Shown here one piece after another: positions 2,177 through 49,785 of a DNA stretch of 64,000 bases. Position 1 is the first letter of the stretch, and each line of letters starts with the position of its first letter. The position numbers and the translations under genes are program-made. The notes beneath the pieces are model-generated. The model did no database searches. It saw only the letters and a list, made by a program, of their open reading frames with translations, and was not told the DNA's origin. The DNA is taken from contig DASZZH010000028.1 of assembly GCA_035543335.1 (NCBI GenBank), positions 80,392 through 144,391 of the forward strand, written 5' to 3'. This DNA comes from Burkholderiales bacterium (GTDB lineage: Bacteria > Pseudomonadota > Gammaproteobacteria > Burkholderiales > JAHFRG01).

Positions 2177-5100
2177 TTATTTCGCGGCAATCCCCTTCAA
2201 CGTTAATCCGGCGCTTTTCATCAGGAAATAAACCGCAGGAATCACGAACATGGAAAGGAGCGGCGCGGAAATCATGCCACCCACCATCGGCGCGGCGATG
2301 CGCCGCATCACTTCCGACCCCGTTCCCGAACCCCACATGATGGGCAGTAGACCCGCAATGATGACAGCCACCGTCATGGCAATCGGCCGCACCCGGAGGG
2401 CTGCCCCTTCGATGATTGCCTGAACAAGTTCCTGCTCGCTATGAAGGCGCCCCTCGGCTGTGCGGGCGGCCACCGCCTGATTCACGTAGATCAGCATCAC
2501 CACGCCGATCTCCGCTGCCACACCCCCCAGCGCGATAAACCCCACCGCGGCGGCGATCGACATGTTGTATCCCAGCAGAAAGATCAGCCAAAAGCCGCCC
2601 ACCAGCGCAAATGGCAGCGTGGCCATGATCAGAAACGCTTCGTCGAAGCGTCGAAACGTGAGATAAAGCAGGACGAAGATGATCACGAGCGTCGCCGGCA
2701 TGACGATCTTGAGCTTGGCGGTGGCCCGTTCCAGAAACTCGAACTGGCCTGACCACGACATGGAGTAGCCGGCCGGGAGCTTGATCTCCTTTGCAACCGC
2801 CTTCTGCATCTCGCGCACCGCGGAACTGAGATCGCGTCCATGGAGGTCGATGTACACCCAGCTCGACAGCCGCGCGTTCTCGCTCTTCAGCATCGGCGGG
2901 CCGTCGCTGATGGTGATGGCCGCAACGTCGCCGAGCCTGATCTGCGCGCCGCGCTCGGTGAGCACCGGCAGGTCGCGGATTTTCTCGACCGTGTCGCGTA
3001 CCTCGCGCGGGTAGCGCAAGTTGATGGGGAAGCGCTGCAGCCCCTCGATTGTCTCGCCGATGTTCTCGCCGCCGATCGCCGCCGAGACGATGCTCTGCAC
3101 GTCGGCGATATTCAGCCCGTAGCGCGATGCCCTGTCGCGGTCGATCTTCACGTCGATGTAGCGCCCACCGGACAGGCGTTCGGCAAACGCCGAGGTTACC
3201 CCCGGCACCTGCTCCACCACGCGCTGGACCTCGGCCGCGATGCGGTCGACCTCCTGCAGGTTCATTCCCGCGACCTTCACGCCGACAGGACTCTTGATGC
3301 CGGTGGCGAGCATGTCGATGCGGTTGCGGATCGGCGGCACCCAGATGTTGGACAATCCGGGCACCTTGACGATGCGGTCGAGCTCCTCGACCAGCTTGTC
3401 CGGGGTCATGCCCGAGCGCCATTGGTCGCGCGGCTTGAACTGGATCGTCGTCTCGAACATCTCAAGAGGCGCCGGGTCGGTCGCGGTCTCGGCGCGCCCG
3501 GCTTTGCCGAAGACGCTCGCGACTTCGGGCACGGTCTTGATCAGCCGGTCGGTCTGCTGCAGGAGCTCTGATGCCTTGCCCGCGGAAATGCCCGGCAATG
3601 CCGATGGCATATAGAGAAGATCACCCTCATCGAGCGGCGGCATGAATTCACCTCCGATCTGCGTCGCCGGGTAGAGGGTCGCGAGCAGGATCAGCAGGGC
3701 AACCACGAGCGTAATTTTGGGAAAAGCCAGCACCTTGGCGAGCAACGGCTGATACACCGCAATGAGCCCGCGGTTGAGCGGGTTTTTCTTTTCCTCGGGA
3801 ATCTTGCCGCGGATGAGATAGCCCATCAGCACCGGAATCAGTGTGACCGCCAACCCCGCCGCCGCTGCCATCGCGTAGGTCTTGGTGTAGGCCAAGGGCG
3901 AGAAGAGCCGCCCCTCCTGCGCTTCGAGCGTGAAGACTGGAATGAAGGAAAAGGTGATGATCAACAGCGAGGAGAACAGCGCCGGCCCCACCTGGGCCGC
4001 CGCGTCGCCGATCACGCACCACTGTTCGACGCCTTCAAGCTTCTGGTCAGGGTGCGCGTGGTGCCACGCCTCGATGTGCTTGTGCGCGTTTTCGATCATC
4101 ACCACCGCAGCATCCACCATGGCGCCGATGGCGATGGCGATGCCGCCGAGCGACATGATGTTGGCGTTTACCCCCTGGTAGTACATGACAATAAATGCCA
4201 TCAGTATGCCCAGCGGCAATGAGACGATCGCGACAAAGGCAGAGCGCAGATGAAACAAGAATATGACACACACAAGCGCCACGACAATGAACTCCTCGAC
4301 GAGCTTTTGCTCGAGGTTAGCGATGGCGCGCTTGATCAAGCTCGAACGATCGTAGGTCGGCACGATCTCGACGCCCGGGGGAAGGCTGGTCTTCAGGGTT
4401 TCCAACTTCCGCTTGACTGCATCGATCGTCTCGAGCGCGTTCTTACCTGAGCGCATCACGATGACGCCGCCCGCCACTTCGCCCTCACCGTTGAGCTCGG
4501 CGATGCCGCGCCGCATCTCCGGGCCGACCTGCACTCGCGCGACGTCGCCAAGCCGCACCGACACGCCTGCCTCGGTCGTCATCAGCGGGATCTTGCGAAA
4601 ATCGTCGAGCGACTGCAGATAGCCGCTTGCCCGCACCATGTATTCGGCTTCCCCCAGTTCCAGCACCGAACCGCCGGTCTCCTGGTTGGCGCGCTGCACC
4701 GCTTCTATGACTTTCATATGCGGGATGTTGAATGCCCGCATGCGGTCGGGATCCAGCACGATCTGGTACTGGCGCACCATGCCGCCCACGCTCGCCACCT
4801 CGGAGACGTTGGACACCGTTTTCAACTCGTACTTGAGGAACCAGTCCTGCAAGGCACGCAGCTGCGACAAATCCATCTTGCCGCTCCTGTCGATGAGCGC
4901 GTATTCGTACACCCAACCCACGCCGGTCGCATCCGGCCCGAGCGCAGTCTTGGCTTGCGGCGGCAGCCGCGACTGCACCTGGTTCATATATTCGAGCACG
5001 CGCGAACGCGCCCAGTACGGATCGGTGCCATCTTCGAACAGGATGTACACGAACGAATCGCCGAACATCGAGTAGCCGCGCACCGTTCTCGCGCCCGGCA

Positions 5101-5326
5101 CCGACAGCATGGTGGTGGCGAGCGGATAGGTCACCTGGTTCTCGACGATCTGCGGCGCCTGCCCCGGGTAGCTGGTGCGGATGATGACCTGCACGTCTGA
5201 CAAATCGGGGATCGCGTCGAGCGGCATCCTGAGCATCGCCCACACCCCCCAGGCGGAGATCATCAAGGTCGCCAGGAGAACGAGAAAGCGGTTGGCGATC
5301 GACCAGTGGATGAGCTTGGTGATCAT
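2177..5326 (-). CDS. cusA: Cu(I)/Ag(I) efflux RND pump, inner-membrane subunit CusA
   Basis: This heavy-metal-efflux RND proton antiporter pumps Cu(I)/Ag(I) from periplasm and cytoplasm out through CusB and CusC. It has 1049 residues, close to the E. coli length. The three substrate methionines fall exactly at 573 (LLYMPS), 623 (PLEMFETT) and 672 (RIDMLATG), the E. coli CusA positions, and the proton-relay Asp is at 405 (GAMVDAAVV). This supports monovalent Cu/Ag rather than Zn/Co/Ni specificity. The start is the ATG at 5326, which overlaps the cusB stop as ATGA; the open frame continues 66 codons upstream but that part is out-of-frame cusB. About twelve membrane segments are visible. Confidence 0.95.
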
Positions 5327-6912
5327 GGCTTCATCCCTTTCATGCCGTCCTTCATCGTGCTGTCCAGCGGTTTCTGAGCGGGGCCGGCGGCAGGGGCGAT
5401 GCTCGTGATCTCGAACATCCCGTCTTGGGTCTGACGGAACTCGAACGACACGGTGTCGCCTACTGCCACATTCTTCGGTAGACCCGGGGCGGGGACACGG
5501 AAGCCCATTGTCATCGCGCCCCATTTCATCGACGGAATCGGCCCGTGCGATAGCGTGACCTCTTCTTTGCCGATGCTCTCGACCTTGCCTTCGCCGCGAT
5601 GCGTCACGCCTCCGGATTTGCCGGAGTCCATCGCGGGCGCATCGCCCATGCGCATCGTTGTGGCCTTGAGGCTCGCTTCGGAGTCGATCAGAAACTGGGC
5701 CGAGACAACCACCTTTTGGCCTGCTTCAAGTCCTTTGCGGATTTCGGTTTGGCCGTTGGCCTCCATACCGACGTCGACATCGACCGGGACGAACTTGCCG
5801 GCATCCTGCTCCACTATGACTACGCTGCGCGCCCCCGTCTGGATCACCGCTTCGGTTGGCACCAGTAGCGCCTCTTTGCGCGCCATCGGTGTGAAGTTGA
5901 CAGTGGCGAACATGCCGGGCACCAGCCGGCCGCCCGGATTGGCGAGCTCGACGCGCGCCTTGAACGTGCGCGTTGTCGGATTGACTTCCGGCAGGATGGC
6001 GCTCACTCGCCCTTTGAACACGGTGCCGGGCAGAGCAGGCGTGCGGGCTTTGACCAGGTTGCCTGGCCGTACTTCGCTTGCCTGACTTTCACGGACTTCT
6101 GCGTTCACCCAGACGGTGCCGAGTCCGTTGATCCGAAACAGCGGCGCCCCCGCCATTACTGTCATGCCCTCGCGCGCGCCGAGCTCCGCGACCACGCCGC
6201 CTAAGGGCGCGATCACCGTCAGGCGCGGGTGTACCTTGCCAGTCGATTCGACCAATCGGATCTGGTCTTCGCTCATGCCGACCAGGCGCATACGCTGACG
6301 CGCGCCGTCAATCAACGCTTCCAACCGGGTGCCGGCCATGCGCCGCACGGAGAGGTATTCCTCCTGCGCCGCCACCCATTCGGGCACGTACAGTTCCGCC
6401 AGCGGCTGGCCCTTGCGCACCGGATCGAGAGGCGCACGGACGTAGAGTTTTTCGACGAAGCCGTTGCTGCGTGCTTGCACCACGGCAACGTCGCGTTCGT
6501 TGTACGCGACGTTGCCCACGGCTTCGACGGCCGGCGCAAGCGCGCCCTGGGTGACTTCCGTTGTGCGCACGCCCAGATTTTGCTGAACACGCGGGCTGAT
6601 TGTGACCTTGCCTTCGTCGCCATCCGCGCCGGCGTAAACCGGCACCAGTTGCATGTCCATGAAAGGCGACTTGCCCGGCTTGTCAAACTTCTGTTCCGGC
6701 TTCATCGGGTCGTGCCAGTAAAGGATTTTCTTGTCGGTAACGGGGTCGATGGCGCCGGCTTGTTGCGCGCTGCCGCCCGCAGGCGCCGCGGCGCCGGAAA
6801 CCGGGCTCGCCATCTTCATGCCCTGGTTCATGCCAACCCAATAGAGGCCATAACTGGCTGCGCCGAGGAGGCCTGCGGCGGCGAGCGCGAGGATGAGGTT
6901 CGTGGTCTTCAT
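5323..6912 (-). CDS. cusB: Cu/Ag efflux periplasmic adaptor CusB with a fused C-terminal CusF-like domain
   Basis: This membrane-fusion adaptor links CusA to CusC. Domains in order in 529 residues: an N-terminal membrane anchor (about 5-27); a heavy-metal-binding segment with YWHDPM and MDMQLVP (about 62-92); the hairpin, lipoyl and barrel domains (about 100-425); and a CusF-like copper chaperone domain (about 436-506). In the last, H456, W464, M467 and M469 match the His/Trp/Met/Met Cu(I) site of CusF. In E. coli CusF is a separate protein, so here the chaperone is part of the adaptor. The start ATG at 6912 overlaps the cusC stop by four bases, and its own stop overlaps cusA in the same way. 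Confidence 0.93.
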
Positions 6913-8234: not shown

Positions 8235-8298
8235 GCCTCCGCAAACGAAATACCAATTCGCCGCATGCGCGGCGCGTGCATAACGCTTAAGCGGAGGC
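8235..8298 (-). promoter_or_regulatory. Inverted repeat that can hide the cusC Shine-Dalgarno sequence
   Basis: The eight bases GCCTCCGC (8235-8242, plus strand) are the complement of the cusC Shine-Dalgarno region. They recur inverted as GCGGAGGC at 8291-8298, touching the stop codon of the preceding small gene. The 48-base loop contains a further stem (GCCGC-ATGC-GCGGC). In the transcript the arm just after the small ORF stop would pair with the cusC Shine-Dalgarno sequence. That geometry predicts translational coupling: a ribosome finishing the small ORF opens the hairpin. The arms are seen directly; the mechanism is inferred. Confidence 0.55.
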
Positions 8299-8663
8299 TA
8301 ATTCAGAAAACGGCAGAATAGGATGGTTTGCGGCGGATCGGTATGTGCAACAGACTGCGCAGGCATGGCTGGCGCAGCGGCCACTTCAAACAAGGCAAGC
8401 TGCAGCACCGGCAAGGTTGCTGCGGGTATGGCAGGTGCTTCATAAGCGCCGGAATTTTGATTCGCTACGGTGCAGTGTGTGTGACAAGCGTTAGGGTTGA
8501 ACTTGTCTGCATGATGGAAAACAGCGTCTGCGGCCGGGTTAAAAACACCGCTAGGCGCCGAATCAGGAAGAATGCAGGCGTGCGCAGCCAGGCTTAACTG
8601 GGCGAATACCATCAGCCCCAGGGTAAGGCGGGAGACAATTGATAAAAAACGCCGCATGCTCAT
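8298..8663 (-). CDS. Small exported His/Cys-containing protein heading the cus operon
   Basis: This 121-residue protein has a signal peptide ending in LSLAAHA before Cys30. The mature part carries a His/Cys cluster: H50, H51, then NACHTHC with C60, H61, H63 and C64. The tail is Ala/Pro-rich with a second hydrophobic stretch. I do not recognise a characterised family; similar small periplasmic proteins often accompany metal-efflux operons. It is co-directional with cusCBA and 66 bases upstream of cusC, so a role in periplasmic copper binding or as a translated leader is plausible. Start choices are the ATG at 8663 or the one at 8657. Confidence 0.75.
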   Translation of the reverse strand: MSMRRFLSIVSRLTLGLMVFAQLSLAAHACILPDSAPSGVFNPAADAVFHHADKFNPNACHTHCTVANQNSGAYEAPAIPAATLPVLQLALFEVAAAPAMPAQSVAHTDPPQTILFCRFLN

Positions 8664-8693
8664 GCCGCTCGCAATTGATGAGGTTTGACTGTG

Positions 8694-8714
8694 ACCTTAC
8701 TGCAACTGTTAGGT
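8694..8714. promoter_or_regulatory. Candidate MerR/CueR-type operator dyad upstream of the cus operon
   Basis: A 21-bp imperfect dyad has 7-base arms ACCTTAC and GTTAGGT around a 7-base centre (one mismatched pair). Its size and outer ACCT/AGGT match CueR-class operators of copper-responsive MerR regulators. It lies 31 bases upstream of the first cus ORF. The -35 and -10 elements flanking it on the minus strand are poor, and no cueR gene is in the window, so this is only a candidate. Confidence 0.3.
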
Positions 8715-8828
8715 TCCGCACAGCACTCTAACCGCTTTGGCTGCGCGTGGCAATCGGTTTTGCCTTTTCCTTGGGGCCTTTCCCCACTATGATTCTCTTA
8801 TAGAACCGAATAAAATTGGCCGCTTTCC

Positions 8829-48374: not shown

Positions 48375-48752
48375 ATGCCTTGCCCAACCCGCCAACTCGT
48401 CCGCCGTATCGTGCTGTTCGCGCTGGTGTTCAGCGCAATTTCACCCGCGCTTGCGGCGTTGCGCTTCTACGGCAACGCGGAAGTTTTGACGAACATCGCC
48501 AGCGTTCACACGGCGGCGCACAACTCGGCAGAGCACCAGCATTCCGGCCACACAAAATCCGGGGCAAACGGGATTTATTGCTCGTTTTGTCTGGACGCGG
48601 CATCGGTTCAGGCGCTCACGCTGGCCGCGCCGCATTTGCCGCTCTCCGCAATGGCGGTGGAACCACCGCCCCGCGCTGTTCCGCACAGCGTTGAGCCGGC
48701 GCCCTATTACTCCCCGCAACATTCCCGAGCTCCTCCCGTAGTCCTAGCCTGA
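48375..48752 (+). CDS. DUF2946-family exported protein
   Basis: This 125-residue protein has a signal peptide (FSAISPALAALR), a His-rich stretch (HTAAHNSAEHQHSGH) and the DUF2946 Cys pair (YCSFCLDAA). DUF2946 proteins often sit beside copper genes. It starts 11 bases after the STAS gene and precedes an outer-membrane protein and CopC, which supports a role in metal handling. Confidence 0.78.
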   Translation: MPCPTRQLVRRIVLFALVFSAISPALAALRFYGNAEVLTNIASVHTAAHNSAEHQHSGHTKSGANGIYCSFCLDAASVQALTLAAPHLPLSAMAVEPPPRAVPHSVEPAPYYSPQHSRAPPVVLA

Positions 48753-48847: not shown

Positions 48848-49785
48848 ATGCAGGTGTTGGAGCGGGGGTTTTTGTTCTTGACAACTTTTTTCCTGCTTGC
48901 CGCGACCGAAGCTTGGGCTCATGGTTTCGCCGGCAAGCGATTCTTTCCCACCACACTGGCGGTGGACGATCCTTTTATTTCCGACGAGCTGACATTTCTG
49001 ACCAATCACATTCGGGAGCCTGACCAGGTGACCAATGAGTTCTCGATTGCTTACTCAAAGCGCATCACGCCAAACTTCGGGTTCGAGCTGGGCGAGACGT
49101 ACCAACACCTGAAACCGAATGAAGGCGGAAGCAAAAACGGCTTCGCAAACCTTGAGGTGGGCGCCAAATATCAGTTTTTCACAAGCGAGGTTCACGAGGC
49201 CATCCTTTCCGTCGGGCTCGACGCCGAGCTCGGTCGCACGGGCAGCCGCAGCGTGGGCGCCGAGTCGTTTTCGACGCTTTCCCGACCTTCTTTTTTGGCA
49301 AGGGTTTGGGTGACCTCCCCGAATCATTCAGGTACCTCAAGCCTGTTGCAATCACAGGCGCTATTGGCCCCAGCTTCCCGACGCGCAAGACCAATGTGAC
49401 AACCACCATGGATCCCGTTACCGGAGATATCGACCAGGACATCGAGCGCAACCCGACAAGTTTAAACTGGGGGCTCACTTTCCAATACAATCTTCAATAT
49501 CTGCAATCCTTCGTGAAGGATATCGGGCTCAAAGAGCCGTTTAGCCGGATGATCCCCGTGGTGGAGCTCGCCCTCAGTACTTGCCTCAACGCAGACTGCA
49601 AAGGACAAACCACCGGTACGGTGAATCCGGGCATCATCTGGTTCGGCAAGCATGTTCAACTCGGGCTCGAGGCGCAGATCCCCGTCAACCAAAGAACGGG
49701 AAACTATGTCGGCGTGTTGTTCCAGATGCATTTCTTCATTGACGATCTGTTCCCGCAAAGCGTGGGGCGGCCGCTGTTTCGTTAA
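48848..49785 (+). pseudogene. Outer-membrane beta-barrel protein of the CopC locus, frameshifted
   Basis: The start follows GGGAGGAAC. The signal peptide ends at TEAWAHG, and strand-like repeats follow (NEFSIAYSKRITPNFGFEL; FANLEVGAKYQFF). The frame breaks at CCC (49281-49283); the continuation FRYLKPVAITGAIGPSFPT through LFQMHFFIDDLFPQS lies one frame back and ends at 49785. One added C restores 312 residues. It resembles conserved hypothetical outer-membrane proteins; role unknown. It lies six bases before copC. Confidence 0.75.

Follow-up and report, generated by a model that had tools for sequence, protein, structure and literature searches.

Does the making of a CusCBA copper pump at this locus hinge on the translation of a small open reading frame (ORF) that precedes the pump genes? 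CusCBA pumps are usually described as being under two-component promoter control. In the window examined here, that is, the whole stretch of 64,000 nucleotides analysed from a contig of a Burkholderiales bacterium (DASZZH010000028.1), a preliminary description had proposed such a dependence on the small ORF, with the Shine-Dalgarno sequence (SD) of cusC hidden in a hairpin. Our results indicate that production of the pump is very probably decided by translation of this ORF, which we call the leader. We also consider it likely that it acts as a translational leader of the CutF kind, in which a hairpin would bury the cusC SD, the ribosome translating the leader would open it and copper would switch the pump on.

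The leader is separated from cusC by a gap of 66 nt on the same strand, and the features of the operon are collected in Table 1. The chaining of cusC, cusB and cusA by ATGA overlaps, already remarked on earlier, is exact at both junctions, cusC/cusB at 6912-6909 and cusB/cusA at 5326-5323. The CusF domain (PF11604) of cusB occupies residues 469-539 of the longest ORF and constitutes a fused copper-chaperone domain. A promoter of its own for cusC had been named as one finding that would speak against control by the leader, and the scan of the gap gave no sigma-70-like site between 8232 and 8297. The sole match lies upstream of the leader ORF; chance alone would give 1.3 matches over the scanned region.

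Table 1. Position of the leader, hairpin and pump features, numbered from the first base of the window.
Feature	Position	Strand	Remarks
Sigma-70-like promoter match, weak candidate	8725..8753	-	upstream of leader ORF
Leader ORF (CusD/SilD/CutF-like), 121 aa	8298..8663	-	stop codon TAG at 8300-8298
CxxxC codons (C60-H-T-H-C64)	8472..8486	-	presumed Cu(I) site; C60 invariant in 22 aligned members
PP codons (residues 110-111)	8331..8336	-	45 residues after C64, 10 before stop
Complete SD-hiding hairpin, 23 bp (8+5+4+6)	8235..8298	-	fold prediction, -38.1 kcal/mol
Anti-SD arm GCCTCCGC	8291..8298	-	begins at last base of leader stop codon TAG
Inner apical hairpin CGCCGC-GCAT-GCGGCG	8259..8274	-	fold prediction, inside the large hairpin
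cusC SD arm GCGGAGGC	8235..8242	-	carries GGAGG, just 5' of ATG 8231
cusC, outer-membrane efflux protein, 440 aa	6909..8231	-	PF02321, E 3.3e-31
cusB, adaptor with C-terminal CusF domain	5323..6912	-	PF16576, PF11604
cusA, heavy-metal RND pump (CusA/CzcA)	2177..5326	-	TIGR00914, 1344.8 bits

The 8-bp inverted repeat starting at the stop codon of the leader could be confirmed, bases 8298-8291 being the exact complement of 8242-8235 on the minus strand. The pairing over the SD therefore stands as first described, but the size of the hairpin had been understated, as pairing runs on through the whole gap to 23 bp. In the predicted fold, 8298-8291 pairs with 8242-8235, 8288-8284 with 8247-8243, 8281-8278 with 8253-8250 and 8274-8269 with 8264-8259. 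The folding check that had been suggested for the gap thus returned a single hairpin (8298-8235), with a minimum free energy (MFE) z-score of -4.33 that was equalled in stability by 0 of 200 dinucleotide shuffles. It persists in longer sequence contexts and is retained in the MFE and centroid structures of the 464-nt leader context. A further 100 shuffles left the SD unchanged and randomised the interior; in these, the SD paired with the 26 nt that begin at the leader stop codon with a probability of 0.29, against 1.00 at the locus itself (p<0.01). Taken by itself an 8-bp inverted repeat is unremarkable, with 20 listed pairs of at least 7 nt in 1 kb here; the whole hairpin element is not a chance product.

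Two other readings of this RNA were discarded. Membership in a known Rfam cis-regulatory RNA was rejected, as none of the covariance models scored above its gathering threshold and only two sub-threshold matches appeared (E 3.8 and 4.2). The PP codons of the leader (CCGCCGCAAAC, 8336-8326) are also complementary to GTTTGCGGAGG (8246-8236) at the SD, with 10 of 11 bp formed in the window and, as judged by eye, all 11 in a relative of the same genus; the family-wide signal for this alternative pairing is weak (z -2.7 against -14.7 for the main pairing), and it is probably incidental.

A scan of genome contigs with the single leader protein found only the same-genus relative, whose leader is 83% identical and whose anti-SD arm carries one C-to-T change that keeps a G-U pair, so we turned to a profile built from 22 relatives. 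This profile matched in 86 of the 399 sampled genomes of the order, representing 49 of 159 genera, and in very few genomes of the class outside the order; a plasmid search with the window leader protein gave nothing convincing. For 104 of 120 profile hits (duplicates still included) the next gene codes for an outer-membrane efflux protein. After duplicate removal 85 junctions were left, and SD pairing was assessed in 82 leader-cusC junctions, almost all of them belonging to this order. The gap from leader to next gene has a median length of 72 nt (interquartile range 66-76.5). The family also precedes a c-type cytochrome-like gene in place of the efflux gene at a few loci (L010/L057, L019). 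The sequence CAGTAAGGTC(A/G)CAGT, upstream of the leader at about 8688-8703 of the window (minus strand), is kept in the same-genus relative (L024) and might be a regulator site.

In 78 of the 82 junctions, the cusC SD was paired, with a probability >0.5, to the 26-nt stretch that opens with the leader stop codon; these counts come from related loci and are thus non-independent events, with cusC start codons partly picked by their SD. The SD-hiding pairing, as modelled, is absent from the remaining four. Over all 82, the mean pairing probability was 0.85 compared to 0.34 in shuffled sequences (Wilcoxon p 3.6e-14), the median MFE z-score was -3.57 and 74 fell below -2. Measured from the first base of the leader stop codon, the partner of the SD sits at a median distance of 6.5 nt. 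The start and SD of the leader itself served as a control; by the same measure, they are much less hidden than the cusC SD (0.21 vs 0.89, n=20 loci).

The arm sequences themselves diverge between groups, e.g., TAGACTCTTCAGGT...ACCTGAAGGATTC against TAGCCTCCGC...GCGGAGGC. Cognate arms form duplexes averaging -18.7 kcal/mol, compared to -13.3 when permuted (z about -15), so that exchanging arms among loci brings a mean loss of 5.4 kcal/mol, and 0 of 10,000 permutations fell below -14.7. With the SD core left out, cognate arms still reach -7.6 against -5.5 for permuted ones (permutation minimum -6.45). The partners of the SD core are C/U-rich throughout, while the stem positions on either side show several pair types each. 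In an alignment of six Cupriavidus-like junctions, 6 of 24 pairs show double compensatory changes; the RNAalifold covariation term is unfavourable (+0.89) in this small and hard-to-align set. The comparison of arms in relatives with the same gene order, proposed at the outset as a test, therefore came out in favour of the pairing, which is maintained through compensatory changes. A T-rich run comes after the inner hairpin in 8 of 74 gaps (L020, L072, L093 and five more), compared to 0.7 in mononucleotide-shuffled sequence; this terminator-like arrangement suggests attenuation as an added layer at those loci. An intrinsic terminator was rejected as the general function, since only these eight loci qualify.

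What kind of protein is the leader? The published CutF-like class is defined by a length of <150 residues, PP in the last 15 residues, a Sec signal peptide, a Cys motif and a same-strand gene within 1000 nt (PMC9973294). The window leader has 121 residues, PP at positions 110-111, the Cys metal motif C60-HTH-C64 and cusC 66 nt downstream; its N-terminus, MSMRRFLSIVSRLTLGLMVFAQLSLAAHAC, resembles a signal peptide (basic, hydrophobic, AHA-C) as judged by eye. To this is added the stem-loop masking the SD of the next gene that belongs to the CutF mechanism, here indicated by the predicted fold, the shuffles and the covariation. The fit with the class is well supported, the signal peptide being a by-eye call, and so is the view that the window locus is a new member of the CutF-like leader kind.

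In the window leader, C64 and P110 are separated by exactly 45 residues, a spacing that differs by a few residues among relatives, and the protein ends in a conserved tail, ...DPPQTILFCRFLN-stop. CxxxC is present in 73 of 83 relatives, and PP is followed by 10 residues to the stop in 59 and by 9 in 16 of the 83. Of 85 relatives, 84 have proline at -11 and 78 at -12, counted from the end, and the tail, I-x4-F-x2-stop, shows good conservation. C30 (8574-8576, minus strand), at the likely end of the signal peptide, is invariant in 22 of 22 aligned leaders and may be a ligand, a lipobox residue or neither.

The closest known parallel is CutF, from the cutFOG operon of Rhodobacter capsulatus (PMC9973294, PMC8456105). 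Both systems have a short leader ORF in first position, with an exported product in CutF and a probably exported one in the window, CxxxC with a C-terminal PP about 40-45 residues further on (45 from Cys motif to PP in CutF, according to its authors; PMC9973294), and a short gap with a stem-loop over the SD of a next gene that detoxifies copper. They differ in this gene, cusC of an RND pump in the window and a multicopper oxidase in the CutF system, in the distance from PP to the stop, 10 residues with the conserved I-x4-F-x2 tail here but about 2 in CutF, and in the gap, about 66-76 nt in the window family and 40 in CutF. Expression of cutO depends on translation of cutF in cis and on its CxxxC, its C-terminal prolines and its signal peptide, requirements that disappear once the stem-loop over the cutO SD is disrupted (PMC9973294). 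In fusion tests, CutF gave no measurable stalling. The commonest neighbours of CutF-like genes are outer-membrane efflux genes, and CusD and SilD are labelled nodes in the CutF-like network, for which the main text gives gap lengths and not hairpins (PMC9973294).

CruR of Bordetella pertussis (DUF2946; PMC9426467) is an exported leader ORF, as the window leader probably is too, and likewise heads a copper operon, with paired cysteines 45 residues before PP. It differs in having CxxC, RAPP three residues from the end, a 162-nt gap and a copper response that switches expression off through Rho (PMC9426467), and the window leader family has no profile similarity to DUF2946 relatives (profile-profile probability 0.3%). 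None of 22 leader family members matched PF11162 (DUF2946) at E 0.1. Membership in the DUF2946/CruR family was rejected on this absence and on the presence of CxxxC and DPPQTILFCRFLN instead of CxxC and C-terminal RAPP. CopL of Xanthomonas is, according to the summary in PMC9973294, a leader needed in cis for copper-regulated expression, as the window leader may be, and differs in that the gene downstream is the copper oxidase CopA. One member of our family matches the NCBIfam CopL model NF033807 (E 3.5e-5); the window leader does not match it.

The idea that pump expression hinges on translation of the small ORF is thus supported by the pairing kept at 78 of 82 junctions, by a gap devoid of promoter-like sites and by the cutF-cutO genetics, which prove the mechanism for a homologous arrangement. 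In the mechanism that we favour, the mRNA would start upstream of the leader ORF and, by default, the gap would form one hairpin that buries the cusC SD and leaves the pump off. A ribosome at the leader stop codon would cover the anti-SD arm and free the SD, and cusB and cusA would be translated after cusC through their overlaps. The nascent leader peptide would be exported co-translationally, and periplasmic Cu(I) bound at CxxxC would slow the release of the ribosome at the conserved C-terminus, which would lengthen the open state and turn the pump on. We infer that the hairpin is opened by a dwelling ribosome and that the signal is copper, with the pump turned on in response; a copper response and translational coupling would likewise operate at the window locus. 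The direction of the copper effect may be a different one, because in CruR, for which translation arrest has been shown (PMC12992588), copper relieves the arrest and does not prolong it.

The position of the prolines bears on where such a ribosome would have to wait. The 3' edge of a ribosome usually lies 15-16 nt beyond the P-site base; for a ribosome halted on PP in this leader, that edge would fall short of the stop codon by about 20 nt. Since PP stands 10 residues before the stop, a ribosome stalled there would leave the hairpin closed, and one with the stop codon in its A site covers the anti-SD arm, so that the decisive event would be the dwell time at or near termination.

Published work on Cupriavidus metallidurans CH34 offers an opportunity to look at this junction in a model organism. 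Its CusD and SilD match our leader profile (E 1e-20 and 3e-18, in searches of one or two sequences), and the cusD-cusC and silD-silC gaps fold to SD-hiding hairpins of -43.9 and -32.3 kcal/mol. Both proteins share with the window leader the family, the position before cusC or silC, the kind of tail and the SD-hiding hairpin, and differ from it in their divergent protein sequence and in the sequence of the hairpin. In unchallenged cells, RNA-seq gave 291 NPKM for cusD and 1.7 for cusC, and 129 for silD and 4.0 for silC (PMC11647585), which places cusC RNA about 170-fold below that of cusD without metal. A metal mix induced cusC 14-fold and cusD 1.7-fold (PMC11647585), and under acute copper the entire cus cluster was induced apart from cusD (PMC7563307). 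One transcription start was mapped to a site 20 bp 5' of cusD as annotated (PMC9045368); for silC, silB and silA, the published search detected no primary start (PMC7563307). A lacZ study pointed to periplasmic Cu(I) as the likely regulator of cus (PMC10304878). The published data put a metal-controlled step at the cusD-cusC junction; being at the RNA level, they may reflect a signal carried by polarity, Rho termination, decay or antisense RNA. The authors favour antisense RNA or CopRS for the cusD-cusC pattern.

One rival explanation is plain translational coupling, in which the hairpin would only set the stoichiometry of leader and pump, the leader being a periplasmic copper-binding protein or chaperone and copper control being purely transcriptional. 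Such hairpins are common in operons. The interpretation of CusD as a Cu-binding lipoprotein that passes Cu(I) to CusF, rather than a leader sensor, also speaks for it (PMC10304878). However, the nearly fixed distance from PP to the stop in otherwise divergent leaders and the conserved C-terminal tail suit a function of the nascent chain better than one of the mature protein, and the high cusD RNA of C. metallidurans without metal, with cusC so much lower, argues for much control after initiation at the leader promoter; we regard coupling of this simple kind as quite improbable. The hairpin could also lack regulatory meaning, being a GC-rich inverted repeat that arose incidentally or an element of mRNA stability, as 8-bp repeats are common in the GC-rich DNA of the window, but chance is already refuted and position and pairing are conserved with covariation in nearly all loci, which makes this reading highly implausible.

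Transcription attenuation is the other mechanism to be weighed, one in which a stalled or terminating ribosome on the leader would set read-through against termination (intrinsic or by Rho) within the gap, hiding of the SD being secondary. The drop in RNA from cusD to cusC in C. metallidurans, the terminator-like gaps described above and the action of CruR through Rho (PMC9426467) all point this way. Nevertheless, a convincing U-tract is absent from most gaps, including that of the window (tail AATTGGTATT), the covariation extends to the SD arm and to bases 3' of the SD that a terminator does not need, and polarity after blocked translation would likewise yield a drop in RNA. We thus consider attenuation unlikely as the main mechanism and retain translational gating by the leader.

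If translational gating is correct, the conserved and covarying hairpin indicates a second gate between promoter and pump in many relatives, which would be read by the ribosome making a copper-binding peptide. With such a gate, CusD and SilD of the model organism C. metallidurans can be reinterpreted in concrete terms, and the published RNA-seq patterns ascribed to antisense RNA or CopRS would be explained; the junction set also provides many natural covariants for testing nascent-chain metal sensing. We also put forward, tentatively and as a serious possibility rather than an expectation, that CusD/SilD-type leaders constitute an arrest class of their own, with copper holding the ribosome at the stop codon and not at PP. 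CusD and SilD would in that case be leader sensors and not copper chaperones, and this step would be a main point at which copper controls such pumps throughout the order. The hairpin would be opened solely by a ribosome that dwells at termination, because PP has by then moved about 10 residues into the exit tunnel, the tail is conserved up to its last residues and the anti-SD arm has its first base within the stop codon. Arrest of this kind, if true, would explain the roughly 170-fold fall from cusD to cusC in C. metallidurans.

The window also contains a second, different copper-type leader, a DUF2946 (CruR-like) ORF at 48375-48752 on the plus strand (E 1.2e-7) with CSFC and a C-terminal RAPP. 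The gap after it folds with a z-score of only -1.9, and the ORF sits just upstream of a gene for an outer-membrane-like protein (ORF from 48812, likely ATG at 48848).
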